A stretch of DNA of 64,000 nt from Protula sp. h YS-2021 (taxonomy: Eukaryota; Annelida; Polychaeta; Sabellida; Serpulidae), in the NCBI GenBank assembly GCA_949752745.1, contig OX457024.1, positions 107,810,287-107,874,286 of the forward strand. Direction: 5' to 3'. The notes under the pieces are model-generated. The model ran no database searches. It saw only the letters and a program-made list of their open reading frames with translations, and had not been told where the DNA came from. The position numbers were made by a program, and so were the translations under genes. Of the stretch, positions 9,176 through 45,556 are shown one piece after another. Within the stretch, counting starts at the first letter, position 1; each line of letters begins with the position of its first letter.

Positions 9176-9179
9176 CTCA

Positions 9180-11545: not shown

Positions 11546-11585
11546 GTAAAATTTTACACACGTACATACACACATACACAGGTAT

Positions 11586-11607
11586 GTCGGGAAACAAACG
11601 ACGAATC
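11586..11607 (+). repeat. Left terminal inverted repeat of the giant element
   Basis: GTCGGGAAACAAAC then GACGAAT. It pairs with 33099-33118. A GCGAAAT word follows at about 11627. Confidence 0.65.
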
Positions 11608-12415
11608 GCGATTTCTTCTCCAACTCGCGAAATGTACGCCAAAAATCTAACTTCGTTATTAGGGACTTTTCAGACATAAGTTGTATATGAAAATCTCGGT
11701 AGATTTTTTTTACATTCAATTCCGAAAGCGAAAATATATAAAAGACAACAGATTAAGAGAAATTTAACAAAGCATGAACCCTGCGAAACAGAATATTTTG
11801 TTTACATAATTTGCATATTTTACACCATTTTTTGATATCTGCAACTATAAGTTTGATGTGAATCGAGACTGTGTAAAAAATGTAAACAAACCGATTTTGT
11901 TTATAAACAAAGGCCACGTGCTTTCTGTAAAAGAGTATTAGGGAAACACTAAATAAAAGCCAAACAAGCGTAGAGTTTGTTTTCTTTTATTTACACCATA
12001 ATCCCAATGTAATATTTATTTTCTTTCATTTCTATACATAAACTATTTAACATTAATTGAAGATTTACAAAATATTGAAGAGCAGCACAAAAGATATTAA
12101 AACAGATGAATGTTTAAAAACATAGATTTATATTATACAGATGAATTGTTTAAAAACAAAATACAGATTTATACAGATGAATGTTTAAAAACAAAACTCT
12201 TTTAAAATATAACCAAAATACAGGAAAAATAATACAACAAAATCCTTCACTGATATAACCGTCTTGTGTAAATAACCAACTCTATCTTATTTTCAAGCTC
12301 AGTGTTATGTACACTACTTAAAATTTAATGATAGGCCGAAAAAAACGTGAGGCAATGAGATATAAACCACATAAAAGCTTCCTAAAGAAAACAAAATACA
12401 CAGCAGAAACTTTCA
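11608..12415. other. A+T-rich left subterminal region of the element
   Basis: No gene. A short duplicated stretch (ATACAGATGAATGTTTAAAA, about 12100-12200) is the only structure seen. Confidence 0.4.
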
Positions 12416-15400
12416 AACTAACTTGCGAAATGTACGTACACAACCATGCACAAAATTTGCAAGTTTAGAGACCATGCAACACAACTTGGGTGTACTACCC
12501 CTCTCGTGACGTTCATAAAGTTAATGTCGGTGACTTCGTATGAGAAAAATTAACTGAAAATAACACAATTAAAACTTTCAAACTGACATGCGAAATGTAC
12601 GTACAAAATCATGCGAAATGTGCGAACACCAAAATTTTTTAATCACGGAAACATCGGCAAATTTTCCAAGTTTTGAGACAATGTCACGTTTGCGCGTACG
12701 CCCTTCTCGCGACGTTCATAAATTTAAAGTCGGTCACTTCGTATAAGAACAGTGAACTGCAAATAACAGGTAAAACTGACAAGCGAAATGCACGTTTATA
12801 CACAATCATGCGAAATGAACGTATAACAACCATGCATGTGACACGGTCTCAAACTTTTGACAATTTTGCCGATGTTTCTGTAAATAAGCACATTTTGGTG
12901 TTCGCACATTTTGCATGGTTGTGTACGTACTAAAGTAGGTGACTTAGTATGAGAAAAGTGAACTGCAAATAACACAATTAAAACTTTCAAACTGACATGC
13001 GAAATGTACGCACACAACCATGCGAAATGTGCGAACACCGAAATTTTCTTAATCACGGCAATATCGGCAAAATTTCCAAGTTTTGAGGCTCTGTCACATA
13101 CCTTTTGCTCGTACTACCCAATCTCGTAACGTTCATAAACTTTGAAATTGGTCACTCCGAACAGAGAACTTTCGAACTGACAAACGAAATGTACGCTCAT
13201 ACACAACCATGCGAAATGTAATGCAACCAGGCGAAATCTGCGACGCAAGTATTTATTTTTTTTAAATACATAGGCAAACTTGGCAGCTTTTGTCACCTGT
13301 CACATGAAACTTATCCGTACTACCCATCACCGCCACTTTCATAAATTTACAGACTGTCACTTTATACAAGAAAAATCAAATGCAAATAACACACTGAAAC
13401 TTGATACGCGAACGCACATAACCATGCGAAATGTACGAAACAAAAACACTTCTTAATACCTCGGCAAATTTGGCAGGTTTTGAGACCCCGTTACATGAAA
13501 ATTGCCCGTACTACCCAGAACCGTGACGTTCATAAATTAAAAGTCGGTCACTTCGTATAAGAACAGTGAACTGCATGGAAAAAATGATACAAAAAAAAAA
13601 AAAAAAATTCCCCACACTTGTGTAAACCAAAACAGAATCCCACGAACATGACATCACCGCGAAATGTCCCCAAAACAGTTTATTTTTTTAACGGATTTGA
13701 AGCTTCATCCGCCTTTTTATTTTTCTTGTGAAAATTTGAAAGGTATGCCCGCAACTGAACTTTGTCCCTGTGTCCTAAAATATCACATGCTAAATGTACG
13801 TCCAAAACCATGTATGTAACAGGGTTTCAAACTTCAAAAATTTTGCCGATGCTTCTATGAATTAGAACATTTTGGTGTTCGCACATTTCGCATGGTTTTG
13901 TACGTACTTAATTCGGCCACTTGGTGTGAGAAAAATGGACTGCAAATAATGCAGCTAAAGCTTTCGAATTGACAAGCGAAATTTACGTACACAATTATGC
14001 GAAATGTGCGAACACCAAAATGTTCTTACTCACAGAAACATCAGCAAAATGTGCAAGTTCTGAGACCCTGCCACATATCATTTTCTCGTACTACATCGTC
14101 TCGCAACGCTCATAAATTTAAAGTCGGCCACTTCTTATAGGAGCAGTGAAATGCAAATAACACAGCTAATACTTTCGAACTGACAAGCGAAATGCACGCA
14201 CACATCTACAACCATGCGAAATGTAGTGCAACCACGCGAAATCTACGACGCAAGTATTTATTTTTTAAATACATCGGCAAAATTGGCAGCTTTTGTGACC
14301 CTGTCACATGAAACTTATCCGTACTATCCATCACCGCCACTTTCACAAATTTACAGTCTGTCACTTTATACAAGAAAAATCAAATGCAAATAACACACTG
14401 AAACCTGATACGCGAACGCACATAACCATGCGAAATGTACGAACCAAAACACTTCTTAATACCTCGGCAAATTTGGCAGGTTTTGAGACCCCGTTACATG
14501 AAAATTGCCCGTACTACCCAGACCCGTGACGTTCATAAATTAGAAGTCGGTCACTTCGTATAAGAACAGTGAACTGCATGAAAAAAAAACTGATACAAAA
14601 AAAAAAAAAACTCCTCCCACTTGTGTAAACCAAAACAGAATCCCACAAAAATGACATCACAGCGAAATGTCCCCAAAACAGTTTATTTTTTTTTTAAATG
14701 GATCTGAAGCTTCATCCGCCTTTTTATTTTTCTTGTAAAATTTTGAAAGGTATGCCCGCAACTGAACTTTGTTCCTGTGTCCTAAAATATCACATGCGAA
14801 ATGTACGTCCACAACCATGTATGTAACAGGGTCTCAAACTTCGAAAATTTTGCCGATGTTTCTGTGAATTAGAACATTTTGGTGTTCGCACATTTCGCAT
14901 GGTTTTGTACGTATCAAAGTCACACTTGGTGTGAGAAAAGTTGCCTGCAATTAACACAGTTAAAGCTTTCGAATTGACATGCCAAATGTACGTACACAAC
15001 CATGCGAAATGTGCGAACACCAAAATGTTCTTACTCACAGAAACATCAGCAAAATTTGTAAAGTTTTGAGACCCTGCCACATATCATTTTCTCGTACTAC
15101 ATCATCTCGCAACGCTCATAAATTTAAAGTCGGCCACTTCTTATAGGAGCAGTGAACTGCAAATAACACAGCTAATGCTTTCGAACTGACAAGCGAAATG
15201 TACGCACACATCTACAACCATGCGAAATGCAGTGCAACCACGCGAAATCTACGACGCAAGTATTTCTTTTTTAAATACATCGGCAAACTTTGCACCTTTT
15301 GTGACCCTGTCACATGAAACTTATCCGTACTATCCATCAACGCCACTTTCATAAATTTACAGTTTGTCACTGTAAACGAGAAAAATCAAATACAAATAAC

Positions 15401-15715
15401 ACTCTGAAACCTGATACGCGACCGCACATAACCATGCGAAATGTACGAACCAAAACACTTCTTAATACCTCGGCAAATTTGGCAGGTTTTGAGACCCCGT
15501 TACATGAAAATTGCCCGTACTACCCAGACCCGTGACGTTCATAAATATGAAGTCGGTCACTTCGTATAAGAACAGTGAACTGCATGGAAAAACTGATACA
15601 AAAAAAACTCCCCCCACTTGTGTAAACCAAAACGGAATACCACAAACATGACATCACAGCGAAATGGTCCCGAAATAGCGTCTTTTTTTTAAACGGATCT
15701 GAAGCTTCATGTTAC
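12416..15715 (+). repeat. ~1,005-bp tandem units rich in CATGCGAAATG (about 3 copies)
   Basis: The stretch 13780-14640 is repeated at about 14790-15610 with an offset of ~1,005 bp. A more diverged earlier copy covers about 12590-13740. Markers are TGCAACCACGCGAAATCTACG (13222, 14224, 15232), TTCTTAATACCTCGGC (13455, 14455, 15461) and GTCCTAAAATATCACATGC (13772, 14778). Identical 73-residue chance frames at 14308 and 15314 only reflect the duplication. Each unit holds many CATGCGAAATGTACG/GTGCG words in both orientations. Confidence 0.85.
14857..15046. repeat. ~57-bp inverted repeat with ~75-nt loop
   Basis: The left arm (14857-14913) reads TTCTGTGAATTAGAAC then TTTGGTGTTCGCACATTTCG. The right arm (14989-15046) is its near-perfect reverse complement. 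Equivalent pairs occur at about 13849-14044, 12878-13060 and 16605-16796, one per tandem unit. Confidence 0.8.
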
Positions 15716-16586
15716 CATGAAAACACTGACATTACTAACACCATGGAAGACATCACGTTTCACCGCCAGAAAATGCAACGACAGAAACATAAGCATAAAA
15801 AACATGTTATACAATGAATAGCAACGAAGGAAGTGTATATTTATCCTTTCTACTTCGCTACCGTGCGCTTTGCGTCTTCAACATTTTTCCCTTCCCACTC
15901 GAGTTACACAGTTAGTCCCACACACGAACCCCGTGCCAAGGTAAGACTTGAACGTCACCGCACAGCCCCCCTCCCTTACTTTCATTTCTAACAAGTACGC
16001 TTTCTGACAGCGAAACTAAAAACAAATTAAAACAAATACTCGCTGGGTCAAACAGCATGATTTCATAAAGACAGGTGTCCTGACTTAATACTGGAAAACG
16101 AAAAAACCTGCCCCGTAATTTTTGAAAGCTCTTGATAAATCGACAATCCCCTACCACCAATCCCACCCACCCACCCCCAATATTAAATGAGTATGTTTGT
16201 CAATACACCTTTTCCTGTCTACCTAGCAAGTGCTTTGTTTAAACCAACCGCACGAGTTTAAGTAATAACGCCACAACCGATGGCCCCCGATGCCGACTTA
16301 CAACACTACGTCCAGTGTTACCATGAAAACACTGACATTACTAACACCATGGAAGACATCACGTTTCACCGCCAGAAAATGCAACGACAGAAACATAAGC
16401 ATAAAAAACATGTTATACAATGAATAGCAACGAAGGAAGTGTATATTTATCCTTTCTACTCCGCTACCGTGCGCTTTGCGTCTTCAACATTTTTCCCTTC
16501 CCACTCGAGTTACACAGTTAGTCCCACACACGAACCCCGTGCCAAGGTAAGACTTGAACGTCACAGCACAGCCCCCCTCCCTTACA
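15712..16586 (+). repeat. 268-bp direct repeats 608 bp apart
   Basis: 15712-15978 and 16318-16586 are nearly identical, from GTTACCATGAAAACACTGAC to GCACAGCCCCCCTCCCTTAC. The unique middle (15979-16317) has no recognised feature. A partial fourth copy of the ~1-kb unit follows at 16590-16985. Confidence 0.9.
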
Positions 16587-17001
16587 AATTAAAATAAATT
16601 TTGCCGATGTTTGTGAATTAGAACATTTTGGTGTTCGCACATTTCGCATGGTTTTGTACGTATCAAAGTCACACTTGGTGTGAGAAAAGTTGCCTGCAAT
16701 AAACACAGTTAAAGCTTTCGAATTGACATGCCAAATGTACGTACACAACCATGCGAAATGTGCGAACACCAAAATGTTCTTACTCACAGAAACATCAGCA
16801 AAATTTGCAAGTTTTGAGACTCTGTCACATATTATTTACTCGTACTACCCAATCTCACAACGTTCATAAACTTTGAAATTGGTCACTCCGAACAGAGAAC
16901 TTTCGAACTGACAGTTAAAAAGAAAACTCCCCGCACTTGTGTAAACCAAAACAGAATACCACAAACATGATATCACAGCGAAATGTCCCCAAAATATTTT
17001 C

Positions 17002-17228
17002 TTATTTTTTAAACGGATCTGAAGCTTCTTCCGCCTTTCTATTTCTCTTGTACAAATTTGAAAGGTATGCCCGCAACTGAACTTTGTTCCTGTGTCCTAA
17101 AATATCACTTTCCTCTGAAAGGCAGGACTTGATTTCTTTCATCGTTGGCGGCTTGTATCGGTCAATGTGGCCTTGGAAATGTTTATGCACCGCCTCTTTT
17201 TCCTCTGTTGTCCACGGCCTACTCGAAC
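17002..17228 (-). CDS. Exon 14: C-terminal Myb/SANT-like domain and stop
   Basis: Reads RPWTTEEKEAVHKHFQGHI, then PTMKEIKSCL, LGHRNKVQLRAYLSNLYKR and ends DPFKK-stop. R-W-(S/T)-x-E-E-K-x-A-V is typical of the SANT-like C-terminus attached to YRLP-type recombinase proteins. The acceptor is TTTTACAG at 17229. The neighbouring copy of the ~1-kb repeat (GTCCTAAAATATCAC) overlaps the end of this exon: 17050-17105 resembles 13738-13790 and 14740-14795. Parts of exon 14 were therefore copied into the downstream tandem units. Confidence 0.7.
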
Positions 17229-20200
17229 CTGTAAAATAATTTGCACAAGTGTAAAACATGTGTATCTAGCAAAATAAATTTGTGAGTTTACATTAAGTGT
17301 CGAGCATTGCAAAAGATAAGGCGAGATTATAAAATGTAAGTGCAATGAACTGTCAATTCTTGCGAAAGCACACGTTACATTCAATATAGTTTTCGCAACG
17401 CTATTAACAGAACCACGCGAAATGTACCACCTAAAATTTATGTGAACCGAATGCTTTCTGTTAAATCCTACCTTTAGTTTTCTTGGGACTCTCTGACCTG
17501 CGGCTGTGACCGGATTTCTTCCGTTTCTTTTTCATAAGTGATGATACTGAGGTGACAGGCAAAGGAATTTCATATTCCACCTCGTCTGAAAGAAAAACAT
17601 AAATGAACACGTCTAAATGCAATGTTTTTGCTTATATGCAAGAGAAATTAATTATACATAGTGAAGGGTCAACAACATACAATTAAAAACAATGTTAAAT
17701 ATTCATCTACACTAAAATTTTCTTAGTCTCTCACTCCATGCGAAATGTGAAGTACATCTTTCTTTAATATTTTTGCTTGTATGCTTGTACCTGAACTATC
17801 GTCTGAAGCATCAGCGGTCGGTGGAGCAGGAGCGGAAGGAGCTGCTGTTTGTTGTTTTTTTGCTTTGGTACTTTTTTTCTTCTGCGCTTTCAGGAAATTG
17901 AAGATTTCTCTCACAGAACGACCCAGTAACATTTCCTCGTCTCGAACTCGATCCTCCACTTCATCTAACGTTGGAAGACTACCTCTGTGGTGTAATTCTT
18001 TCTTGAATATGGTCTTCATGAGAGCCACTTCAACTTCACTGAAGTGGGGACGAGTTGCTTGATCGCCTGTAAAAACATAAAAAAATGCCACTTTGTTATA
18101 AATAACATTGGCGGAGTTGCAGCAGTACCAAAAACCTGCGAAATTCAAAGGTCACACATTTTATTACTACTGTCTCATGTTTTGTACAGCCTTGTAAATG
18201 ATAATTACATTCTGAACAATGTTTAAAAAAAAATAATAAAAAAAAAACGTTTAATGAAATAGTCATTACAAATATCACCCCTTTATCATCTTACACAACT
18301 TTACTCCTGACTGTTTACGCACAATTCAAGCGAAATCCGATTAATAGGTTTCTTACCCAGCAGTCGTTGCTCCGTCTCTCTTATGACGTCCACTTCTCCC
18401 TCTCCGTCTGATTCTTCAACATCACCTGCGAACAGCATAGACGGGTATCAAATTAACTCCCAATTACATATACACGTCATTTTCGCGCCAAACTGAACTG
18501 TGTGTTACTTCAAATCTTCTCAGCTGTAAAACATACATGGGAACGGGGTCGAAAAAAGTAGGAAAATAAACGTACTGAAACACACACATCTTAAAACATT
18601 TTTTGGGTTTTTTAACATCTCCCTGTTACAAAGTCAGCTAACTATACTTTTCAAATTTTCTTACAAATTTTGAAGTACATTTTGCACGTAAAGTGCAACA
18701 TAAACCTACTTTCCGTTGGTCCACCCTGTGCAGTCACCTCGCCAATTTCCACATCCGGCAACGCTTCGTAGCCCGTTTGTTGGTATGGTTCCCTTGGCTT
18801 CCCACTGTTTATGGCAATGAGGACCTGTGCCACTTTACTCTTTTCGACAATGTCGACCGGTAATCTGTAGTAATCCCTATGAACCCTTATGTCGTGACCC
18901 ATGAAATTTGCCAAAAAGTCCTGCTCTACGTGCGGCAAGTTTAACACTTGCGACATCGTTGCAAGGTGTTTTCGCATGTTTGTTGAATTAAAAATGTTCA
19001 AGTCGGTAAGGCCTGCTTCCACTGCTACCTTTTTTACCGCGACGTGCCCCTCCATCGGTGTGTTATAATTTCCGGGACGTGCAAAGACATAAACCGAGTT
19101 CTTGTGGACGTACTTTTCGCGTAGCTTCAGCAGCAGCTTGATGTTTTCGTGCATATCGTTTGTTAACAGCACCGATATTCGTCTAGAGCATTTCCCCAAG
19201 AACTCAATCCTGATCAATTTGCTTGCCAACTGCTTTTCGAATTCCTGCATTCCCGCTAGATATTCGGGATCTGGCTCTGATGAAATTTTCAGACCGTCAG
19301 TTAAATCCTTCAATAGCAACCTTTCGACCTCACCACTGCGTTTTCTGTTGAACATTATCACCTGTGCGAGGGTATACACCACGACTTCCCTATAGATGTC
19401 TTCTTTCGCCGGTTTCGTATGAAGTACCTTCATTCTGTTCGATATGTGTTGGAAAAACTTGTCAATGTCTTGAAACATTGGCAGAATTTTTCTCTTGTTA
19501 AATTTTCGTCGCTTTAGCAGGAAGTTAGCTCGTCTGGACAAACATGTGTAATAACGATCGAGCACAGAATGGAACACAGAGGCAATCTTGTTTTTCGAGT
19601 AGTCTCCATTTCGTAGGCAATGCATCTCGTATTCGGTTGCAAGGGTTCTTAGAGTTCCTCCTAATCTCATAACCGCCGATGGATGGCTGAATTCTTCTTG
19701 TGATGCTGGTCCTTCGTCCTGGGACATTTTAATAACGCTCTCCATTAGCCTGTAGTGGCCAGGGTGGACTAGGTCTTCACTGCTTACGAAAACATCGGGA
19801 TATTTCTCGCGACACAGCTTAAGTAACTTTGCCAAAGCTATGACGGGTTGTGTTATCATACTTTGCGCCTTCGACATATGACCATGTTTATCGGATAAAA
19901 ATTCCATCAGCTCTAGCAGCAACTTGTCGTTCTTTATGATCTCCGTCGTATGACACGGGTGCATGCGTGCCAAAGCCTTTTTAACAGATTCAGACTTGGT
20001 GTCCACTTGCATCATTTTAGCTCTTGCCTCAGGAACAAGTCGTTTTCGCGTAGTTTTTTCGGGCGTATCAATTTTCTCTCCTTTTTCCCGTCGATCTGCA
20101 TTTTGCTTACATTCCCTCCTTTGATGACGTGCGAAGTTTTCTTTCGTTATCATTGCCTTGCAGTATGGACACAACAGGTACTCTTTTTCTTCAGTCGCTC

Positions 20201-23200: not shown

Positions 23201-26200
23201 CTTTACCACTGCACAAATGCTCAATACCAGCGAAATGGACATCGCATAAAAACTATTTTACTTACCACCTTTTGTTTCTTCTGTCAGCGCGCAAAACCTT
23301 TCCAAGACATGGTGCTGTTGCTCTTGCATAAGGTCCTCCTCCCTTACAGCTGTTGATGGAATAGGCCGCTGCCGAGATGTTACGGGTGCACTACAGGTCG
23401 TCAAGTGCTCTAGAAATTCAGGATCAGGTTCGGCGTCATCACGCAACATCTCAGAAAATGATAAATTTGGAAAAAAGTTTTGCTCTTGTGCTGTTGTAGC
23501 TTGTGGCTGACAAAGTTCATGGCTAGTTTGCTCCTGCCCCTCCCCCTCATCACTTGCTTTGGCCAAGACATCTGCTGAAACAAAAGAAATAAAAACAAAA
23601 TGCATTTCTAAATATCTTTTCCATATAAAACACACTCAACATGCGAAACGCGATATTGCTATGTTTTAGACTTGCACTTAACCTGGATGGTTTCGCTTGC
23701 TTGACGTCCTCATCAGTTTACAACCATACCGTAAAATGTATTATATTGTATTAAAGCATACAGCTAAAAAATAAAAATGAAATACGTAAAACCTACCCAA
23801 AATAGCACTTGTATCTACTGTTTGCAGTGAAGACCTGGGTTCAATGTGGGAAAAAGTTATGCCTTCAGGTTTCAGTCCTTCTACCACATCCCTCACAACA
23901 CATGTCGCAATTTCCTGTCCCGCAAATACCTCCGCATCTACCCCTCCAGGCCTCTGTACCATCCTGCAAACAAGTCCGGCAGCTTCTACAACAAAACAAA
24001 ATGACAGACATGAGAGTTACACAAGCAAATGGTAAATGCATTTATGTGATATACGCGAAACCAGATGCACTGCACACTTTTTTTATGTTCAACTTACTTG
24101 ATAACACATCTAAAATGAGAAAGAAACAAAGCCAATAAATAACTCTGAGTTACCTTGTTGATTAAAGTGCAAGGCGAAAAGCGCTGTATTTTAATTGATA
24201 ACAAAGCTAAATACGACTTACCCATTGCATTTGCAAGGTAGGTATTCCCTGGTTGGACCGTGTAAGTACCTTCCGTCTTGTGGGACAACTCAAAGATCTT
24301 GACTGGTTGAGGTACAGGTTTCACCACTCCTAAAAAAGTTAAAAGGATTTTGAATTTAAGTCATATTTTAGTTTCTTTCCGAGCATTTTTCGTGGGCGCA
24401 AACACAAAATTATTTGGAACAGCGAAATGGGCTGCAGTTGCAAACCCTAAAAACAAAAATAAGCAACACACGAGGTGACCACTTTAAACACAGCTGGGCA
24501 ACAGAACATCTTATGCTTCAATAGTTAAAAAAAAATACACTTACCAAGTAATTTGCCCTCAAACGACTCTGTAGCACCCAATTTCGCATCTTCAGCCAGT
24601 TTTGTGTTACTAAAATGTGTAGCTGCCCCCTCTTTCTTTGACTTGCTAGCAAACTTTTGTAAAAGGGCACCAACGCCCGTAATAACGGTATCGCTTCCCG
24701 GACTACATTCAAAAGTGTCCCTGTCTTCTGTCTCACGCCTTCCCCTTGCTGCTACGGGAACATTTTCTGAAAATGTATCACATTCTAACTACATAAGCGA
24801 AATGAGCAGCACATCAAAGCTGGACACCCTGGATTGCATTTGTTTTGCAAACTCTAAACCACTGCGGATTCGCACGACAGAGACTGACAACTTCACGTGA
24901 AATCAAAATGCCAACTACGCTTAAAGAGACCATGTAGCGGCCAGGAATAACCTTTACATTCAATCTTCAATTCAAAGCTGTACTCACAAAACTCTTTCAA
25001 TCACATTCGGAAGACCTGGAGGGCCACTACTGCTGTTGCCCTACTTGAATTTTGCACGTGACATCCTGCTAAGGCAGTGCTTAAGCAATGCCTAAGCAGG
25101 ATTTCACATGCAAAATCCAAATAGGATAGCAGCAGTAATTGCCCCCCCCCCCCAGGTCTTCCGTAATCACAGCAGTGATAAGCAGTCCTTTTCGCCGACA
25201 ACCATAATGCAAGAAAAAAGTTTTGAATTCTTTAAAATGCCAGCACCCGATTCCCTTGACCAAATCTGCACTACTGCTACATATGTCAGGATACTCCTTC
25301 CGACACACCTCAGCAACAATTCTTACCCTTTATAAATGCAAAAGCATCACTTACCCAGCGACTTCTCATAAGACGCCCCTTGAACAGCCGATTCCGCATT
25401 CGCTGTGTCTTTTTCGCCCTGCGATGAATGTGTGTGTGCCCCCTCTTCCCTTTTCACCGATCTCTCACAAAGCTCCTTTGACATGATATCAACGCCCGTA
25501 ATGACGCAATCGCTGTCCGAACTACGTTCTTCGGATTGCGCCACCCCCTCCCCAACGGTGACCGTAACGTCTGTGTCACGGCTTCCGATTGCAGCAACGG
25601 GGACATTTTCTGAAAAAGTATAACACTGGTATTACAAACGCTAAATCACTGAATTCGTACGACAGAGACACTGACAACTTCACATCAAGTCAAAACAGCA
25701 ACTAAATTTGAAAAGACCATGAAGCGCCCAGGAATAACCTTCACATTTCATCTTCAATTCAAAGCTGAACTGTACAAAACTCTTACAATCTTAGCAGTGG
25801 GCACCGATAAGCAGTCCGTTTCGCCGACAACCACAACGCACGAAAAATGTTTTGAATTCTTTGAAACGTCAGCACCTGGTTGGCTTGACCAAATCTGCAC
25901 TAGTGCTACATATATCCCGATACACCTTCCGACACATCTCAGCAACAATTCTTACCCTTTATAAATGCAAAAGCATCACTTACCCAGCGACTTCTCAGAC
26001 GACGCCCCTTCAACAGCCGATTCCGCATTCGCTGAGAGTTTTGTGTCTTTCTCGCCCTGCGATGAATGTGTGTTAGCCGACTCTACCCTTTTCACTGGTC
26101 TCTCACAAAGCTCTTTTGACATGGTTTTAACGCCTTGAATGACGCAATCGCTGCCCGAACTACGTTCTTCGGATTGCGCCACCCCCTCCCCAACGGTGGC

Positions 26201-28061
26201 CGTAACTTCTGTCTCATGGCTTTCGATCGCTGCAACGGGGATATTGTATGAAAATTCTGTGCAAGCGAAATGAACACATGTTTTAAAATTAATTTGAACT
26301 CTGTGATTTCTTCCAATGCCAATGTTTCATTCTAATGTAACAGCCGAGTCATAAACTATGACGTCCTTATTTAATCCTTGAACAATTTAAAGCTTAGCCG
26401 CACAGGACATGCATGTTCAAAATTCTGACAACAGTCCGTTTCGCTCCAGTCTTACAAGTTCCGGTTCAGGAAAATAACGAAACTGCCCTTCGGATCACAC
26501 CCACAGACACACAAAAAAAAAGATGTCGAATGAAACGAGAAATACGCGTCAAGCAAAATATATGTTGTATATTCGTCCATCTGTTATTACCTGAAATCGA
26601 CGCAGGGATATTTTCCGCTGCTTTCTTAATCTGGCTACAGGCTTGGTTAACATCCGAACTGTCATCACTATCTTTAACCGGTCCCCCAACAATTTCACCC
26701 ACAAAATGGGTCAAGTGGCTCTGATCCCTGCGGCATAACCTCTTTGCGGCTTCTGCCCAGGCCTTGATATATCCCTTCCCGGGGTTTTTACACACCTCTT
26801 CTGCAGAAAAAAATGACGGAATACTTAATCATTCCACATTTCATTCCATACAAGTTTAGACGCACATAAATCATTCCCAAAAACCATGCGAAAACACACT
26901 GTGCGTAAAGGAACACGATACTTTTTTATCATTCCAAGGCGTGAGCACAAAAATTACACGTACACAATGGTCATTTAAGTTTGTGTTCCACGCAAGTTAC
27001 AGAGAGAACAGATACCGAAGAGAAAATTTAAAAATAGGTGTTATACGAATAAGTACAATCTCGCATATACAGTCCGTTTAGCAATGAGAACGTGCAACTG
27101 GCAATACAGGGATTCGGCACTTCATCTAAAATACTGAAAAATACAAGTCCTTTTGGGTCTGATGCTTCCAGTTAGATAATCGAACCTGCAAACTAATGAA
27201 GCATTAGCATGCAAAACTCAACGGAAACGGGGATTTGCAAACCATAAAACGACAAAACAGACATTTAACCCAATCACAGGGAAGGAAAAAAATCGAATAA
27301 GTAAAATCTCGCATATACAGTTCGTTTAGCAATGAGAACGTGCAACTGGCAATACAGGGATTCAGCATTTCATCTAAGATACTGAAAAATACAAGTCCTT
27401 TTGAGTCTGATGCTTCCGGCTAGATAATCGAACCTGCAAACTTATGAAGCACTATCATGCAAAACGGAGATTTGCAAACCGACATTTAACCCAATCACAG
27501 GGAAGGAAAAAATCTGTCATTTCTTAATAACATATTACCAATTCCCACAGCCATAGGAAACGGTTTGAGCTTCCTGGGATCGGAAACTTTCTCCGGACTA
27601 AAAATGAAAGAATGTTTTGAAATCATGGATCACTCTCAGCTGCTGTAAGGACGTCACTTCTGTCCTTGTCAAGTTTTTTTTTCAGTTATTACAGGAGCAA
27701 AAAAAAAAAATGTTACGATACACTGGTCTTTCAACTCTACAAAAGTATAATTTCTGCGAATAGGACGTCATCATTCCACAAGAACACGCAAAAACAAAAG
27801 GGAATCTAAATCAAACTGGTTGTACAGGACGTCCACGACCTGGAAAGGAAAGCAATAGAAAAAAAGTTTAAGAACTTACGCAAAGTCAAAACCGCAAAAC
27901 GAGACTTCTATACTTCCGTCAGGGTCCCGGCCTTCCACATGTGCAGGCCACCACTTCCTTCTATAGATGTGAAGCACAACGTCACCTGTTCTGTAGCGCT
28001 GCAGATCAACGAACTGTTCTTGGACCTTGGTCTTTTTAATCCACCCTTTTTTCCGCGGCAT
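17002..28061 (-). CDS. PWWP - zinc finger - tyrosine recombinase - SANT protein, 14 exons
   Basis: Exons in transcript order: 28061-27880, 27597-27539, 26800-26591, 26256-25984, 25609-25355, 24766-24545, 24329-24222, 23985-23797, 23574-23266, 21490-18710, 18425-18357, 18066-17791, 17585-17472, 17228-17002. All have GT-AG boundaries. The first intron is phase 2 and the other twelve are phase 1. They join to 5,274 nt: 1,757 residues plus a TAA. Order of domains: PWWP-like (about 20-110), acidic Ser/Glu-rich duplicated exons (about 150-400), linkers, Lys/Ser-rich AT-hook-like repeats, two zinc fingers (about 957-1063), tyrosine-recombinase core (about 1300-1480), SANT-like 1 (about 1553-1620) and SANT-like 2 (about 1684-1745). 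The protein is inferred to be nuclear and chromatin-reading, with DNA cutting and rejoining activity. The start at 28061 directly follows a TTTCACAG acceptor, so a 5' untranslated exon is likely. Alternative: a domesticated host gene. Confidence 0.75.
17791..18066 (-). CDS. Exon 12: first Myb/SANT-like domain
   Basis: 92 codons reading RPHFSEVEVALMKTIFKKEL, then LPTLDEVEDRV and LGRSVREIFNFLKAQ, then a KKK-rich and Ala/Pro-rich tail. The aromatic and 'hFxxE' spacing parallels exon 14, so the two look like an internal duplication. Neighbouring small exons 18425-18357 (acidic) and 17585-17472 (basic KKKRKKSGHSRR, a likely nuclear localisation signal) belong to the same transcript by phase. A DNA- or histone-binding role is inferred. 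Confidence 0.65.
18710..21490 (-). CDS. Exon 10: zinc fingers and tyrosine recombinase domain
   Basis: A 927-codon exon. Numbering here starts at the GTG codon at 21464. Residues 80-250 hold a duplicated block (PTPKKKRLSGKKH / PTAKKKRLPGKKH followed by KAAKATVRR). Finger 1 is C346-x2-C349-x9-H359-x4-H364, and finger 2 is C432-x2-C435-x11-H447-x4-C452. The catalytic core has R709-S-G-E712 (Arg I), G757-K758 in the hairpin strand, R831 in NSTNMRKHLAT (Arg II), G856-H857 and Y866 in MGHDIRVHRDYYRLP. The H857 to Y866 spacing (9) equals that of Xer/phage integrases. The usual His three residues before Arg II is Thr828. All essential positions are filled, so activity is plausible. Such YRLP proteins form a large, poorly described family in animal genomes, as I recall; I cannot check this. 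Confidence 0.85.
21665..22815 (-). repeat. Intronic ~210-bp tandem repeat, about 5 copies
   Basis: Lies in intron 9. The unit contains CACAGCAGACTCCAGATTAA, GTGAGCGCTGAAACTGAGTT, a C/T or G-rich GGGGCGGGGTGAGGGGGG block, CCTAATTACACCAAGTACAC and GTGTATCAACATATTGCAG. Copies start near 21765, 21972, 22190, 22400 and 22610. Related, more degenerate units occur at 29.9-32.2 kb. Confidence 0.9.
22816..23105. repeat. Dispersed repeat in intron 9
   Basis: The beginning (AAACATAGGCATCGGAGATGC, then AGCCTTCAGCCA) recurs near 43757. The end (TTTCGTGAAGCTCCG, then a CGGACAGAC run and CAATAGCTCCCTACTAACACC) has the form of a common invertebrate dispersed repeat tail. Confidence 0.5.
23266..24329 (-). 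CDS. Exons 7-9: linker exons of unknown fold
   Basis: Exons 24329-24222 (KIFELSHKTEGTYTVQPGN), 23985-23797 (AEVFAGQEIATCVVRDVVEG) and 23574-23266 (Gln/Glu-rich, ending ERFCALTEETKG). Phases are all 1-1. I recognise no domain. They bridge the acidic exons and the recombinase exon, and membership in the gene rests on unbroken phase and good splice sites. Confidence 0.65.
24545..26256 (-). CDS. Exons 4-6: three tandemly duplicated acidic exons
   Basis: Exons 26256-25984, 25609-25355 and 24766-24545 are paralogous. Each begins N-(I/V)-PVAA and continues through GEGVAQSEERSS, SDCVI(T/Q)GV, KELCER and ASxEKSLG (the third is more diverged). The introns between them are also duplicated: 24925-25355 resembles 25715-25980, including AGGAATAACCTT and CTTCAATTCAAAGCTG. 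All are phase 1 on both sides, so copies can be added without breaking the frame. In the first copy the ancestral TTTTCAG acceptor reads TTTTCAT, and a GCACAG 9 bases upstream restores phase and frame. Low-complexity acidic sequence with no recognised fold. Confidence 0.75.
26810..27538 (-). repeat. Intron 2 with a 249-bp tandem duplication
   Basis: About 27050-27290 and 27299-27510 are copies, sharing AATCTCGCATATACAGT, GCAATGAGAACGTGCAACTG and CCCAATCACAGGGAAGGAAA. No exon could be recognised inside. Confidence 0.75.
27539..28061 (-). CDS. Exons 1-2: PWWP-like domain, first part
   Basis: Exon 1 (28061-27880) begins MPRKKGWIKK and holds YRTGDVVLHIYRRKWWPAHV, where RKWWPAHV matches the P-W-W-P core, then SIEVSFCGFDF. 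Exon 2 (27597-27539, 59 nt) is too short for ORF calling. It was found because exon 1 ends in phase 2 and exon 3 begins in phase 1, and it supplies EKVSDPRKLKPFP, the usual 'lkPf' stretch after the PWWP barrel. Exon 3 then supplies the final helix (GYIKAWAEAAKRL). PWWP domains bind methylated histone H3 tails together with DNA. No methyl-lysine cage can be judged beyond the aromatic WW. Confidence 0.7.
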
Positions 28062-28520
28062 CTGTGAAAGCAATAAGAGAATGATCATTAGCTGAATATA
28101 TTGGGAATTTGAAATAACGACAACACAATCCATAAATCTTAGCGAAACTAACCGACAAGTGACCGGATACATTTGGTGTAGCATTGTGATTTTCTTTTTC
28201 TTCCCTTTTTTTTTTACTGCTATGGCCATATCGGGGCCCCCTGCCACATTATTCTGATATGGGGCATTCAAAATCTCTCTAACCGTGGAGTCCCTCACGG
28301 AGTAGCAAGAAGGAATCTCAATCTTAGGTATGACCCGACAGCATGAGCTATAACTGCGCGAAATTGACCTATTTTTTTTACATTCTAAGAGATCATCCAT
28401 GCGTATTGGCTTATTCTTTTAAGCGTTCAAGGTGGAGGGGGAGACAAAGCATCCGGACTGCGTTCAGGGTAGGGGGTTTAAAATTGGCAAAAGTCTGTGT
28501 ACGTATTAACAGGGCTGGAA
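28062..28520 (-). promoter_or_regulatory. Upstream region of the recombinase gene, with open frame
   Basis: The frame of exon 1 stays open upstream to 28400. It includes VRDSTVREILNAPYQ and a KKKGKKKK stretch, then a hydrophobic stretch that coincides with the polypyrimidine tract before exon 1. The acceptor TTTCACAG immediately before the ATG suggests an upstream exon in this area. A GTTAGT donor near 28153 would not keep the frame, so the upstream exon is most simply untranslated. No promoter motif identified. Confidence 0.35.
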
Positions 28521-29680
28521 ATTGACGGGGATCAGAGACCCTCCTTTTTGGCTACCCAGAGTCCGACTCAGCCGCAAAAAATCAGGTCTTCTTGCGCCCT
28601 ATGTTATCTTAACACGGTTCGGATCCTCCCTAAATAGCTTTGGACCCTTTTTCAAAGTCCTAGGTCCCAAGGACCCGGACCAAAAGAAGCTAGTTTCCAG
28701 CAGTGGCCACTTACAAAAAATTGTAAACCAAGAAATCCAAGAAAAGACAACATCGACAGCATTTTCAAGCGAAACTGAGCAACAATTTTCTGAGCGAACA
28801 TTTCTAGACACATAAATCCGTAAAATAAAAAGATATGTTAGCTCAGAATGTGCCGTCCTCACAATCAAGCCTGTATTTTTACAGCAGTATCTTACACAAA
28901 AAAGTGCCACAAAACACACCAAACACGCTAAAACAACATTTTCTCGTGATTCACAAAATCACCGCGCTTTTAACATTTGTGTATTTACCTTTCAGGTGTA
29001 TCCTTATTAACTTTGTATCCACTTTTAATTTTTCAAAAATTATCCACATGTAACCTGGAAGCTTTCTGCATTGAAAGTGACGCCACCAAGAACAAAGCCG
29101 CGCGCATACACCTCGTGACAGGTTAATTTGCATACTGAGTAAAAAAAAAACATTCAACTTCATGTACACAGTGTAGTGTTTCGCAGATAATTTCATTCCA
29201 AACCTTACAATATTTTTTATAAACTAACACAAACTAAAAAATATCACCAAACAAGCATTTTAATGGCAGAAAAACCTTGACAAAATAACGGATTATTTCG
29301 CGCGCAAACAGTAACAAGGCAAGTCAATCATAAAAGTAGTGCACACACAATTAAAACAGCGCTCAATAATATACAGTCAGCCTGTCATGAGCGTGGGAAC
29401 CTCGAGCTTTTAGCCCGTTCAAAGATCAAAGCAAATCTACTGCGAAATAGAGCTTCTGATACGTGTTTGAATTGGCAATTCCGAAGGAGGACGGGGGCCT
29501 GGATGGAGAGGGGGGGATCTGAGAAGCATATATGGAAGATAAATATGACATTTTTCGCGTGTAAATAGTAAAAAGGCAAGCCAATCTTAAAAGTAGTGCT
29601 CAAACAAATAAAACAGCGCACAATAATACACAATCAGCCTTTCACATGTGCGTGAGAATCTCTCGCTTTAGCCCGCTGAC
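28521..29680. other. Non-coding stretch inside the element
   Basis: 28522-28710 has the look of an eroded dispersed repeat (GGGCTGGAAATTGACGG ... GTCCCAAGGACCCGG), but I cannot name it. The remainder is A+T-rich. 29285-29400 and 29555-29665 are imperfect copies (AAGGCAAG-CAATC, AAAACAGCGC, CAGTCAGCCT). No gene seen. Confidence 0.35.
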
Positions 29681-32280
29681 AGATGCAAGCAAATCAACTA
29701 CGAATAGTCGTTTCGGTGTGTTTATCAACTGTCAATTTCGCAGTTGGCGTGTACAAGAGAGGCGGAGGAAGGGTGAGGGGGATCTGGCCGTCAAAATTTT
29801 TTTTCACTTCTAGACTTTACCAGTGCATTTCGCTTTTTTGGGGAAAGGGTGGGGTTTTCCCCAAATGCAACCAACCCCGTTGTTGCACCAATTTAACAGT
29901 ACAAATACTACAATTGTTGGCTAAAAAAAAAAAGCCGTTTTGATCTGCCAAAACGTAAAGTCAACGTGAAACGAATCGATTTCTCTCTCTCTCTCTCTCT
30001 CTTTTTTTTTTTTTTTTAAATAAAGCAACTCAAGATTAAGGACAGTGAGATAGTGAAACTCAGTTAAAGCGATATTTTTTTGGATAAAGGGAGGGGGAGG
30101 TTTGCACGTCATTGTCTCCCACTAGCTACACTAATTGAGCATTAGCTACACTAATGGAGGGAGGAGTGGGGGAGTCGCGCACCCTCTCTATTTGCGTTAA
30201 TACAAAAATGCACTTTTGAAGTATTAGTTTCAGTCCAAGTGAAATAAGTCGAATTTGAAAAAAAAAAAAAGACAGCACAAGATTAAGGTCACCAAGCAGT
30301 GAGAAACGAAACTCAGTTTAAGTGATATTGACGGAAAGACTGAGTGTATATTAGACTTCTACGCACATTACACACGCTTGTACACCCCAGAAAAATATCA
30401 AATGGCATCACTCAAGAACCTGCCTCTACACGGCGTAACCAAGCGAATTTGGGAGAATTTAGTGGCCACAGCACACTCAAGTTTAAGGGCATCAAATAAT
30501 GAGAAACAAGTAATATTTGTGAAACACAAGCAGGCCCCAACCGTCTCCCAAATTCATAGGGGTATTAAGCGATGACGGACGGACGGACAGCCCAAACCTA
30601 TAGGCCCCAATCCGAAGGGTTGGGACATAATGAAAGCCAATTTCAGCGATATCCACAGAAAGAGTGGGTGTAAATAAGACATATGCGGACATAAAACACG
30701 CTTGCACACGCCAAGAAAAAAAAGTTTAAAATGAATGGTACTGAGAGTTTACAGTTACTGCATCTCACACGCGACACGCATACATGTCGCTTGCTAAACT
30801 AACATGAACAGATATGAAACTCAGATAATGCAATATTTTTTTTTCCGAAAAAAACGGACGAGGGGGGGGGGGGGGGATTTGCCCGTCATTGTATTCTCCT
30901 AGCTACACCAATGGAGCAAAACATTTTTGAAGGATTGCGTCCTGCAGTCAATAAAGCAGGCCGTTTTTAGTACGTTTATCAACTACCAATTTCGCAGTTG
31001 GCGTGTGCAAGAGAGCAGGGAGGAGGGGGGAGGAGGATCTGGCGAGAAAAATGTCTAGGTTTAACGGTGTTAATATATATTTTTTTCACTTCTAGACTTT
31101 ACCAGTGCATTTCGCTTTTTGGGGAAAGGGTGGAGGGGTTTACCCCGAATGCACCCCCCTCCCACCCAGTTGTTGCGCCAATTTAACAGTACAAATACTA
31201 CAATTTTTGTCTCGAAAAAACAAGCCGTTTTGGTGTGTCAAAACGTAAAGTCAATGTGAAACGAATCGATTTCTCTCTCTCTCTCTGCTTTTTTTTAATA
31301 AAGCACACTCGAGATTAAGGACAGTGAGATAGTTAAACTAAGTTAAAGCGATATTAACAGATAGACTGGGGTGAATTTGACTTGAAACACATAAAACACG
31401 TTTGCAACCCCCCCCCCCCCCCCCCCCACAGAAAGATACAAATGGCACAGAGTAATAACTGCATCTACTGGGCGAATCAAGTCGAAATTTGAGAAAATGT
31501 TGCGAATACAGCACACTCAAGTTAAGGCCAACAAGTAGTGAGATATGAAACTCAGTTAATGCGATATTTTTTGATAAAGGGAGGGGGAGGGGTTGCACGT
31601 CATTGTCTCCCACTAGCTACACTAATGGAGCAATATATTTTTGAAGGACTGCGTCCTGCAATGAGCAAAATAAACCGATTTCAATGCGTTTATCAGCTAC
31701 CAATTTCGCAGTGGTTGTGTATTAGAGGGGAGGGGAGGGGTTCTCGCCTACAAAAATCTTAAGTTTAACGGTTTTAACATTTTTTCCAACTAACAGGCTG
31801 TACCATTGCATTTTGCTTTTGTTACAGGAGGGGTGGGAGTGGGGGCGGTGCACCCCTCTACTTGCGCTAAAGCGACAATGCACTTTTGAAGTATTATATT
31901 CAGTCAAAGTGAAATAAGAAGAATTTGAAAAAGAAGACAGCACAGTTAAGATTACGGTCACCAAGCAGTGAGAAACAAAACTCAGTTCTTCAAGTGATAT
32001 TGACGGAAAGACTGAGTGTATATTAGACTTGTACGCACATGACACACGCTTGTACACCCCAAAAATATAAATGGCATCACACAAGAATCTGCCTCTACAC
32101 AGCGAAAGCAGGCGAACTTGGAAGAATTTGGAGAACACAGCACTCAAGTTTAATGGCATCAAGTAATGAGACATTAAGTCAATTTCAGCGCTGGCCACAG
32201 AAAGATTGAGTGTAAATAAGACATGTACGGACACGAAACACGCCTGTTCGCACAACAAAAAGTTATAAATTGCACTGAGA
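29681..32280 (+). repeat. Degenerate tandem/dispersed repeat field
   Basis: Several units recur at irregular spacing: CAATTTCGCAGTTGGCGTGT (29728, 30988), CTTTACCAGTGCATTTCGCTTTT (29815, 31098), AACGAATCGATTTCTCTCTC (29970, 31260) and GACTGAGTGTATATTAGACTT (30338, 32010). They are related to the intron-9 repeat (GGTTGCA or TTTGCACGTC G-rich blocks followed by a promoter-less spacer). It includes a run of about 20 C at 31410-31429. Confidence 0.75.
30513..30626 (+). repeat. Dispersed ~115-bp repeat, copy inside the element
   Basis: ATTTGTGAAACACAAGCAGG, then CAAATTCATAGGGGTAT, AAGCGATGACGGACGGACGG and CCAATCCGAAGGGTTGGGAC. A second copy lies outside the element at 46842-46968. Confidence 0.8.
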
Positions 32281-32925
32281 GTTTACAGTGACTGCAATTC
32301 ACACACAACACGCGTACATGAGGCTTGCGAAACAGACCGGCTTACATAAAGAAACCGAAAATAATATGTCAAACAAATGACTTGGTTAAAAAAAAAACAA
32401 GAATCTACGAAGAATAACAAACTCTAACGATTGCTTAATAAAATATGTGACACTTTGCTTCAGTTAAACAAAAATATGTACTTAAAAAAATGAAGTGGAA
32501 ACTTTCTGGTATTATCGTCCACTACCAAAAGGGGTGTTGCCTTGCTTACCCTCAACTTTAACTTTGATTTTTGAGATTTATAGGCTACAAACAAAACAAT
32601 AAATAACTTTAAAACGTATTTGCGATATTATTCTTCCTGTTTTAAATACAATTATACGGATATGCCACCCCAGAATCTACTAAAATGTAGGCCAAAAAGT
32701 AGACAACCACCTGGGGCCGGGTCCATTCCAACACGTGGTCGCGCTCCCCTGACACATGTGCTAGCACCTGATTGGTTGAAATGTGATATAAAAATAGATT
32801 TCACACAGATCGAAAGATGTGTACGTCTTCTGATTGGCTCTCGTTCCACGTGCTTTTCTCACACAGAGTTCATGGTAGGTAGCCACCTATATGTTGGTGT
32901 GAGAACTATTTTACACAGAAATTTT
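32281..32925. other. Right internal region of the element, no gene
   Basis: Two related words (CCTGATTGGTTGAAATGTGA and TCTGATTGGCTC) are contained here near 32768 and 32830. No convincing coding sequence. A 156-codon frame at 32620-33090 has no recognisable features. Confidence 0.35.
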
Positions 32926-32929
32926 GAAG

Positions 32930-33080
32930 GTCTCTGTAAATTTCTGCGAAATAGGCATGTGGTCTCAGGTGAAAGAGCACGTCCTGTTTCGCAAAATGAG
33001 CCCCTTACACAGATTTGCGAAACGGACGACCCGACCAAAATGCGAAACGGACCGAAATTCGGTCCGTTTCACTTTAACAT
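32930..33080 (+). promoter_or_regulatory. Right subterminal GCGAAA motif cluster
   Basis: In 150 bp there are TGCGAAATAGG, TTTCGCAAAATG, TTTGCGAAACGGACG and ATGCGAAACGGACCG, and then the palindrome CGGACCGAAATTCGGTCCG. A cluster this close to the terminal repeat could be where the encoded zinc-finger/SANT/recombinase protein binds. That role is inferred. Confidence 0.4.
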
Positions 33081-33098
33081 TGCAACGTGATACACACC

Positions 33099-33118
33099 AA
33101 TTCGTCTTGTTTCCCGAC
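33099..33118 (-). repeat. Right terminal inverted repeat of the giant element
   Basis: AATTCGTCTTGTTTCCCGAC, the inverse of the left end at 11586-11607 apart from a 2-base gap. Confidence 0.65.
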
Positions 33119-33464
33119 GAAGCCGCATCCACACATACATACGTACATACGGACGACGGATACCCCTCTATTGATAAGATAAGACCAGCCCGACATAGTC
33201 GGCTGGTCTAAAAACCACTTCAAGAACTATGTAAAATGCATTTAATTCGAATTTGGAAAATAAATGACATCGGGTCAAAAATGTAGGAGGAGATACAGTT
33301 TTAATTTTTTTCTTTAAAAACTCGCCAAAAATTCAAAAATCACCCGATCGACTAGAAAAGCACAAGCCGTATGCACGACCCCTTAGGGATGCCTCACACC
33401 AAAAATAAATGACATCGGATCAAAATTGTAGGAGGATATGCATTTTGAAACAAAGTTTACAGCG

Positions 33465-44059: not shown

Positions 44060-44336
44060 TATATGTTCTTTTTATAACTTTTACAGACAGACATACACAC
44101 ACACACCCACCAGAAAAATCCGACATTTCACTGGCAAACAATGTTTTTACGAGCGGTAAAAACTCGTGGTATTTTTCCACGGTTCTTCTACACCATGTAT
44201 ATACGGGAGCTGGCATTTCGTCGATCGACATTTTGCCCAGCGACATTTTACTGAGCGACATTTCGCCGAAATTGGCATCTAACATATCTAGTCGAGATTT
44301 GTAATTTCGGGAGATGTCTTTTTAAAGATTCGTCAA
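44060..44336 (+). repeat. Short 18-bp repeats before the LINE
   Basis: A (CA)n stretch and then GCGACATTTTACTGA-type units (about four copies, 44215-44275) of the form (G/T)CGACATTT(T/C)GCC. Confidence 0.6.
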
Positions 44337-45556
44337 ATGATGAATTGCACCTTTTTTGCAGACGATATTAATCTGTTTTATTCCGGGTCTGATATTCCTA
44401 AAATGTGTCAAATCATCACAAAGGAATTATCAAAATTGGATCGCTGGTTTAAGTTAAACAAATTATCTTTAAATGTGAGTAAAACTAATTTTATGGTATT
44501 CGGTCGTCCGAAATGTAATGACTATAATTTAAGTGTTCAATTTGGTGATGCAAAAATTTCCCGCGTTCACTGTACTAAGTTTTTGGGTGTTATTATTTAT
44601 GATAAACTTAATTGGAAAGAACATATCAATCGAGTACGTTCAAAATTAGCAAAATGTATAGCAATTATGTATAAAGTTAGTTCAGTCATTGATAACCAAG
44701 CATTGTTCATTATCTATCAATTTTTGTTCTTACCATATATGTCTTATTGTGTAGAAATATGGGGAAATACTTATGAAACAAATGTCAAGGAAATCGTATT
44801 GTTGCAGAAACGAGCAATTCGTGTTATGTATGGTGTTGGACGGTATGAACATACGAATAGTCTCTTCTTCGAGTCGCGTATCATGACAATGCGCGAAGTA
44901 GTTAAATTTAAATCTTTAGTAATAATGTTTAAAGCGATAAGTCATACCCTTCCTTGTAATATTCAGTGTCGCTTCGAAATCGTTAATGACAGAATTACTA
45001 GACAACATGGGAACTTTAAACACGTTTATTCGCGAACTGCATTAAAAAAAAGACATTGCTTAGGGATTAAGGGTGTAAACATGTGGAATTCCTTACCTCC
45101 AGAATTGAAAACTGTTCATACGGAAAGGTTATTCAAGAAAAAACTTAAACACTATCTTATTGATACTTATGTAAAGACGAAGTAGCTATCTTTTATCTAA
45201 ATGTGGCAGCATTATGTCTAATATATGTCTATTCGATTAACTCTCTTCTTTTTATGAGCGAGTCGTCTTATATAAAACTTGTGATAAAATATCAGTTGTG
45301 TCGTATAATGTGCTACGATGGTTGTCATTAAACACTCCTCGATTAGTGTAGTTAGCACCATCCAATAAACTCTGAAGTGTATATAACGTAATTGTCACTG
45401 GAGAAAGGGGCAAGCATTGTCACAAGCGTTTGCTTTTAGCTTGTTCCCTTTTCTGAACTCCTTGAATAATAAATTACTAATGTTTGTTTTCCTTGTAATA
45501 ATCCCTTGATTTTGATTCAGAAAATAAACTTTGATTGATGGATTGATTAATTGACG
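44310..45556 (+). mobile_element. 5'-truncated LINE (Jockey/CR1-like), reverse transcriptase C-terminus
   Basis: An intact 282-codon frame (44337-45185) starts just before FADDINLFY, the catalytic F/YADD box of the reverse transcriptase. It continues through KLSLNVSKTNFMVFG, KFLGVIIYDKLNWKEHI and VEIWGNTY to the usual C-terminal WNSLPPEL...FKKKLKHYL ending. The 5' part (endonuclease and fingers) is missing, as is normal for target-primed insertion. A 3' untranslated region follows and ends in a TTGATTGATGGATTGATT tail near 45531-45556. The frame has no stops, so the insertion is relatively young. Confidence 0.9.

Follow-up and report, generated by a model that had tools for sequence, protein, structure and literature searches.

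Tyrosine recombinases, whose superfamily signature is the catalytic set R-K-HxxR-H-Y, integrate the DIRS, Ngaro and PAT elements without target-site duplication. The animal tyrosine-recombinase DNA transposons treated in the available part of one publication (PMC3212892) are Cryptons, in which no terminal repeats were found there, and a circular intermediate has been proposed for Cryptons. The Starships of Pezizomycotina, as far as the accessible text of PMC12134995 describes them, use a captain of the DUF3435 family, located at the 5' end, can hold sizeable cargo and in some cases bear inverted repeats. Endogenous nimaviruses of crustaceans, in the portion of PMC10871703 at hand, combine a C2H2 zinc-binding domain with a tyrosine recombinase, multi-exon in two of the viruses, and these recombinases are associated with insertion into simple repeats or microsatellites or into 28S rDNA; the authors also note decapod relatives outside viruses. 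Among the matches listed in our search of the published literature, which covered titles and the beginnings of abstracts (Repbase and preprints lay outside its scope), there was no large inverted-repeat tyrosine-recombinase transposon in animals.

A sequence-only reading of a 64,000-nt stretch of DNA (the window) had proposed such an element, a transposon of 21.5 kb that encodes a tyrosine recombinase. This is borne out by the number of copies, by the precision of their ends, by flanks that vary from copy to copy and by one empty site, and we consider it likely that the block represents a DNA transposon that is autonomous, has been active recently and moves by means of its tyrosine recombinase.

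Element boundaries and terminal inverted repeat

The two arms of the terminal inverted repeat, which had been placed at 11586 and 33118, are real: the left arm (11586..11606, plus strand) reads GTCGGGAAACAA-AC-GACGAAT and the right arm (33100..33118, minus strand, read from 33118 to 33100) reads GTCGGGAAACAA-GACGAAT, the arms being 21 and 19 bp long and differing by a 2-bp indel. We rejected the inverted repeat alone as proof of an element; by itself it is weak evidence because shuffled windows yield similar pairs. Ten block-shuffled windows held 0-3 pairs of a 12-mer seed with a 7-bp extension each (zero in six of the ten), and the real window held 6,417, the 40 listed comprising one inverted duplicate pair and otherwise simple repeats. 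Across the whole window the terminal 12-mer, with up to two mismatches, was not enriched (3 found versus 6.2 expected).

The block boundaries are confirmed by two independent tests, hexamer segmentation and copy comparison. Inside the 21.5-kb block there are 82 occurrences of the hexamer TTTCGC/GCGAAA, against 31 in 62.5 kb of flanking sequence, and the best two-boundary segmentation of these 84 kb, 11627..33042, is set in from the reported ends by 41 and 76 bp. When the terminal 40 bp were compared with ten other genome copies, nine of ten left ends and all ten right ends showed no mismatch. Junctions were read in 21 copies including that of the window, with the left end located in 19 and the right in 17. 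The ends are precise across copies, and the constant part is slightly longer than first thought, extending from about 11575 to about 33131 (whole element 11575..33131, from TAYACAGGTAT|GTCGGG to CCCGAC|GAAGCCGCATCCA). In the outer left tip, TAYACAGGTAT (11575..11585, plus strand), Y stands for T in 13 of the 19 copies and for C in 6, and AGCTAC replaces AGGTAT in one of them; the outer right tip, GAAGCCGCATCCA (33119..33131, plus strand), is the same in all 17 copies located.

Copies across the genome

In the 863-Mb genome, assembled in large contigs, the recombinase part (622 aa) has at least 71 full-length copies on many contigs, all stop-free and approximately 100% identical (71 of 71 scored places, out of 602 first-look candidates). 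Mean divergence among 30 copies is 0.14%, which points to a very recent burst. Exact matches to the two-part terminal word number 629 genome-wide, versus 0 for its reversed control. Among 100 ends listed, 68 are right and 32 left ends, and 29 of the 32 left ends are matched by a facing, inverted right end at a spacing of either 12.6-13.2 kb (12 pairs) or 20.5-26.9 kb (17 pairs). Three listed left ends lack such a partner, and ten more adjacent pairs less than 40 kb apart lie in other orientations. With 29 of 32 listed left ends paired in this way, the terminal word is not an ordinary dispersed repeat found in all orientations, the outcome that had been named as refuting the transposon reading. 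An internally deleted 12.7-kb relative is missing the recombinase exon, and the 12.7-kb relatives are probably moved in trans. Further multi-copy families of the block's recombinase are present in the same genome.

These copies also bear on whether the block goes back or is related to an integrated large DNA virus similar to the endogenous nimaviruses, of which everything but the integrase was lost. The published endogenous nimaviruses do offer C2H2 and tyrosine recombinases and insertion into microsatellites or 28S rDNA (PMC10871703, in the part available), but all 71 scored recombinase copies are near-identical and the located ends fall at the same places, and therefore the small unit itself multiplies. 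Moreover, no viral gene was noticed among the block ORFs, and none of the 27 IMG/VR stretches that share a word of the protein encodes a relative, so we regard a viral origin as improbable.

Target sites and empty site

Across the 21 copies, precise ends are joined to differing flanks, and the targets are mostly CA/CATA microsatellites. In the window, copy junctions and sequence place a target-side CA/CATA microsatellite at 11556..11574 (plus strand) to the left and a CATA/CGTA microsatellite at 33132..33150 (plus strand) to the right, the latter continuing the dispersed repeat of the left flank. A 156-bp tandem array (9177..11543, plus strand) lies outside the element in the left flank, and its last stretch is common to the left flanks of the copies at C3:4347022 and C5:33016531. 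The suggestion that the two flanks form one interrupted dispersed repeat is correct: C5:33016531 and a 12.7-kb relative have both repeat flanks at the same place, and C3:4347022 has the left one.

One copy sits inside a 97-bp tandem repeat whose uninterrupted units represent the empty site. At this single clean empty site (n=1) there is no target-site duplication beyond 0-3 ambiguous bases, and a duplication of 2-3 bp would be compatible with it; most targets are simple repeats, which make short duplications unreadable. Two copies in different arrays have the same 19-base joint save for the variable Y, with the CA core on different sides.

The same junctions weigh on two further explanations. 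A host gene family could have spread by segmental duplication with coincidental inverted repeats; the gene is indeed intron-rich and host-like, and the nearby copy at C1:107967074 has the same right flank and resembles a segmental duplicate. This is the only copy that fits, and for the family segmental duplication is refuted by identical ends with differing flanks, by paired ends in the listed part of the genome and by the uninterrupted host repeat units, leaving it a negligible chance as a general explanation. It is just as hard to credit an assembly artefact or an element of the rolling-circle (Helitron-like) kind: absence of a target-site duplication is also a property of Helitrons, but these encode Rep/helicase and are not known to have terminal inverted repeats, and the copies are scattered over many contigs and have different flanks.

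Gene and protein

We predict a single gene on the minus strand (17002..28061) with 15 coding exons, a 5,286-nt coding sequence and a 1,761-aa product; all 14 introns of the model are GT-AG, in keeping with the earlier description of the element as intron-rich, and an extra non-coding exon upstream is possible. Exon 11 (18710..21490, minus strand) encodes a linker, two Cys/His zinc-like motifs and the tyrosine recombinase domain, and its frame is open until a stop at 18651, so that a shorter protein is possible. A motif scan located the catalytic motifs RSGEVERLLLKD, GKCSRRISVLL, RKHLAT and MGHDIRVHRDYY at 18867..19340 (minus strand), with R, K, R, H and Y in order and T instead of H as the first HxxR residue. 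The motif set was matched by none of 100,000 shuffles, using a pattern composed after the protein had been inspected. The same five residues are kept in a second in-genome recombinase family. The Cys/His positions are conserved across an alignment of three relatives and have no Pfam zinc-finger match. By eye, and likewise with no Pfam match, exons 1-2 (27539..28061, minus strand) give a PWWP-like protein start and exons 13-15 (17002..18066, minus strand) a C-terminal pair of Myb/SANT-like helical repeats.

Searches of Pfam, NCBIfam, PHROGs and PDB returned nothing usable. Against Pfam, with E up to 10, the recombinase had only unrelated weak matches and neither DUF3504 nor DUF3435/PF11917; its best NCBIfam match was a tyrosine-type DNA invertase (E 0.059). 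Two structure predictions were of low confidence (mean pLDDT 45 and 36), and homologue searches yielded two unnamed proteins only. No second gene or cargo gene was noticed among the block ORFs by ORF list, gene model or Pfam, and among the 17 of 22 block ORFs of at least 100 aa that were scanned against Pfam, none reached the curated cut-off and none matched a reverse transcriptase or DDE transposase.

DDE elements typically end in inverted repeats of about 20 bp, and with a recombinase that has no profile match, the block could be a cut-and-paste transposon whose real DDE transposase was overlooked, the recombinase-like gene being a passenger or accessory. Against this, no second gene was noticed in the ORFs just described, the recombinase exon is stop-free in all 71 scored copies, and at the one clean empty site a fixed-length duplication of the DDE kind is absent beyond the few ambiguous bases. 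We therefore hold a DDE transposon to be unlikely, if less so than a viral remnant.

Relationship to described elements

In its mode of action the element resembles Cryptons and Starships, and it matches the definition of neither. As in Cryptons, a tyrosine recombinase is the only recognised enzyme, with no reverse transcriptase or DDE match in the scanned ORFs. The element differs from CryptonA and CryptonI of animals and CryptonF of fungi in its 19/21-bp inverted repeat, its 21.5-kb length, its 15-exon gene model and its lack of DUF3504, and the recombinase may be distantly linked to CryptonA/DUF3504. Unlike DIRS, Ngaro and PAT elements, it shows no reverse transcriptase in the 17 ORFs scanned. 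With Starships it shares large size and a tyrosine recombinase, and with some of them inverted repeats; it differs in having one gene, no noticed cargo gene and no PF11917/DUF3435 match, and the 863-Mb genome and 15-exon gene model speak against a Pezizomycotina host. The proposal of a Starship counterpart thus survives as an analogy only, because there is no cargo gene seen and no DUF3435 or other Pfam match. The nimaviral recombinases, by their description, resemble it in being multi-exon in two viruses and in inserting into simple repeats, and belong to large viral genomes, whereas this element stands alone, with a single gene, inverted repeats and a CA-type target.

We lean slightly towards a new superfamily of large, inverted-repeat, intron-rich, microsatellite-targeting tyrosine-recombinase transposons of animals, an analogue of the fungal Starships and a source on which large DNA viruses such as nimaviruses may have drawn for their repeat-specific integrases. 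In transposition, the 1,761-aa protein would bind the inverted repeats through its zinc-like and Myb-like parts and cut at the CA-rich core outside them. The two ends would then join into a circle with the core GCATCCACACATAYACAGG, which would recombine at a short stretch of identity (CA, CAC or CAT) in the target tract, so that nothing longer would be duplicated. Speculatively, a cut-and-rejoin reaction might raise the copy number this far if the element moved during replication or if the circle were amplified.

Tyrosine-recombinase elements can thus be large, inverted-repeat-bearing and currently or very recently active in an apparent animal. An animal host would fit the 863-Mb genome in large contigs, the gene structure and a receptor-like ORF recognised by eye. 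Tools that rely on target-site duplications will easily miss an element that inserts into CA tracts without clear duplication, and ORF-based screens will be defeated by its introns and satellite-like interior. The copies are intact and young, and excision, circle formation and target choice are therefore directly testable.

Internal repeats and other open reading frames

Within the element, a tandem-repeat region (12451..17108), with units of roughly 1 kb and many ATTTCGCA-type motifs, reaches into the last exon of the gene, a 213-bp tandem array (21722..22813) lies within intron 10, and a 27-bp near-perfect palindrome (33044..33070) is found near the right end. An RT-like ORF at 44292-45182 lies outside the block.

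Copies of the element and their ends

Searching the species' own genome (863 Mb in 218 contigs) with 622 amino acids of the recombinase exon, we found at least 71 copies (71 scored out of 602 first-look candidates), all of which match across residues 1-622 at a rounded 100% identity without stops, while 65 preserve the same 952-aa open frame. Over 4.87 kb around this exon, 30 copies, including the window copy and its nearby duplicate, diverge by a mean of 0.14%; the median is 0.08%, the largest divergence is 0.72%, and no difference at all separates 17 of the 435 pairs. The copy at C1:107967074 (contig and place), about 138 kb away from the window copy and in opposite orientation, has the same right flank, with 100% identity as far as 33258; it is not an independent insertion but either part of an inverted segmental duplication or a duplicate made by the assembly.

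The terminal inverted repeat described in the sequence-only reading lies where it had been placed, with the left arm GTCGGGAAACAA-AC-GACGAAT at 11586-11606 and the right arm GTCGGGAAACAA-GACGAAT running leftward from 33118 to 33100. Taken alone, this repeat is little proof of an element. Block-shuffled windows contain zero to three comparable inverted pairs each (none in six of ten shuffles) and the real window holds 6,417 of the same grade, of which the 40 listed comprise simple repeats and a single inverted duplicate; when up to two mismatches are allowed, the 12-mer shows no enrichment there (3 observed, 6.2 expected). The boundaries are fixed by the other copies and by a compositional signature. 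Both ends were read for 20 of the 71 scored copies, C1:107967074 among them, and across the outermost 40 bp the first ten copies show no mismatch at nine left and all ten right ends. Allowing at most three mismatches in 25 bases, and with the window copy included, the left end was located in 19 of 21 copies and the right end in 17. Five of the six undetected ends belong to the second ten copies, and these do not demonstrate missing ends because 190 to 490 bases were read per end and array length varies.

The hexamer TTTCGC/GCGAAA, picked as the most enriched, has 82 occurrences within the 21,533-bp block versus 31 across 62,467 bp of flanking DNA, which includes 10 kb added on each side of the window. 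A maximum-likelihood search of these 84 kb returned 11627..33042 as the best single enriched segment (log-likelihood gain 54.8), which stops short of the reported element ends by 41 bp on the left and 76 bp on the right. Tandem arrays at 12.5-17 kb supply part of the count, and the hexamer is also found in exons, in introns and close to both element ends. It appears throughout the element (11627-33042), frequently as ACATTTCGCATGG, and may serve as a binding site for the protein that the element encodes.

Genome-wide, the pattern GTCGGGAAACAA-N{0,4}-GACGAAT is matched 317 times in forward and 312 times in reverse orientation, and a reversed control is not matched at all. Among 100 end places listed (C1 and part of C2), 32 are left and 68 are right ends. 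The paired, inverted ends that had been anticipated were recovered: 29 of the 32 listed left ends converge with a neighbouring right end, at a spacing of 12.6-13.2 kb in 12 pairs and 20.5-26.9 kb in 17, while three have no facing partner. Ten neighbouring ends within 40 kb, among the listed places, have other orientations. When five right ends lacking a left partner among the listed places were probed, one had a left end differing by one base, and four of the five had element DNA at one or both tested distances, so the excess of right ends is at least partly due to variant left ends. One 12.7-kb copy, read at full length, retains both ends and the first-exon region, and its main blocks share about 86-91% identity with the window element; it lacks roughly 17.1-25.0 kb, including the recombinase exon. 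On C2, left and right ends of adjoining same-orientation elements lie 119 bp (28730857/28730976) and 149 bp (31435829/31435978) apart, probably tandem insertions in one target tract.

Target sites and empty site

The sequence constant between copies extends from TAYACAGGTAT outside the left repeat to GAAGCCGCATCCA outside the right repeat, where, of 19 copies, 13 have T and six have C at Y, and one of the 19 has AGCTAC instead of AGGTAT at the left tip. Beyond it the flanks vary, being CA or CATA tracts for the most part. The suggestion that the window flanks form one interrupted dispersed repeat proved right, as the copy at C5:33016531 is inserted at the same position of the same repeat on both sides and that at C3:4347022 shares the left flank, its right flank being a CA tract ending in N. 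A second repeat is common to the right side of four other copies.

The only clean empty site is at C9:23116070, where the copy is inserted in a 97-bp tandem repeat with intact units reading GCCACTCATGCAGCC. Its left junction is GCCACTCA then TACACAGG and its right junction GCATCCACACA then TGCAGCC, leaving no more than an ambiguous CA or CAT as target-site duplication. At C4:20025004, read without an exact empty unit, the CA core is on the opposite side (ATGCGCA followed by CACATATACAGG; GCATCCA followed by CGTCTCC). The variable Y aside, both arrangements lead to one and the same joint, GCATCCACACATAYACAGG. From these two junctions we infer that a circle would recombine with the target through a short CA, CAC or CAT match, leaving that joint.

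Predicted recombinase gene

The predicted gene, drawn by eye from the sequence, runs from 28061 to 17002 on the minus strand, its 15 coding exons forming one 1,761-aa frame and its 14 introns all having GT-AG boundaries. The frame of exon 11 (18710..21490) by itself continues to a stop at 18651, which would allow a shorter product. Judged by eye, a PWWP-like N-terminus is followed by duplicated acidic exons, a basic linker, Cys/His motifs, the recombinase and two Myb-like repeats at the C-terminus; Pfam gave no match to the PWWP-like, acidic, Cys/His, recombinase or Myb-like parts, and a scan of 17 of the 22 block ORFs of at least 100 aa gave none at the curated cut-off. Exons 4 and 5 (25984-26256 and 25355-25609) belong to a tandemly duplicated stretch with about 87.5% identity.

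The putative tyrosine-recombinase assignment rests on the ordered motifs RSGE...LLLKD, GKCSRRISVLL, RKHLAT and GH-8-Y, a set absent from 100,000 shuffles, with the pattern written after the fact. Its R, K, R, H and Y are conserved in a second in-genome family. The NCBIfam match, a tyrosine-type DNA invertase at E 0.059, is weak, and two structure predictions were below usable quality. P0002, a protein relative (30% identity, 88% of the query covered), has the first, second and last motifs and a four-residue gap at the RKHLAT box. Searching the genome with P0002 gave at least 48 scored places out of 2,122 candidates, whose identity is 31-36% across about 540 aa; 17 share an 895-aa frame and 11 have one or two internal stops. 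None of the 48 coincides with the places listed for the window's family, and thus further families of this recombinase have multiplied in the genome.

Comparison with known systems

The element probably works like a Crypton or a Starship, yet we assign it to neither, since animal Cryptons are without terminal repeats (PMC3212892), and the defining feature of Starships, which may also hold sizeable cargo, is a DUF3435 captain (PMC12134995). Among published systems, the closest parallel found, likened by description only, is the recombinase of endogenous nimaviruses, which has a C2H2 zinc-binding domain, is multi-exon in two viruses and inserts into simple repeats or 28S rDNA (PMC10871703).

Surroundings of the element

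Outside the element, the window contains a reverse-transcriptase-like ORF at 44292-45182 (RVT_1 at E 5.6e-6, which falls short of the curated cut-off) and an assembly gap of 200 N at 48469-48668. Minus-strand ORFs at 1410-2904 look receptor-like (7-transmembrane) by eye, and a tandem array at 35450-37316 comprises 29 copies of a 64-bp unit, with several minus-strand frames open.
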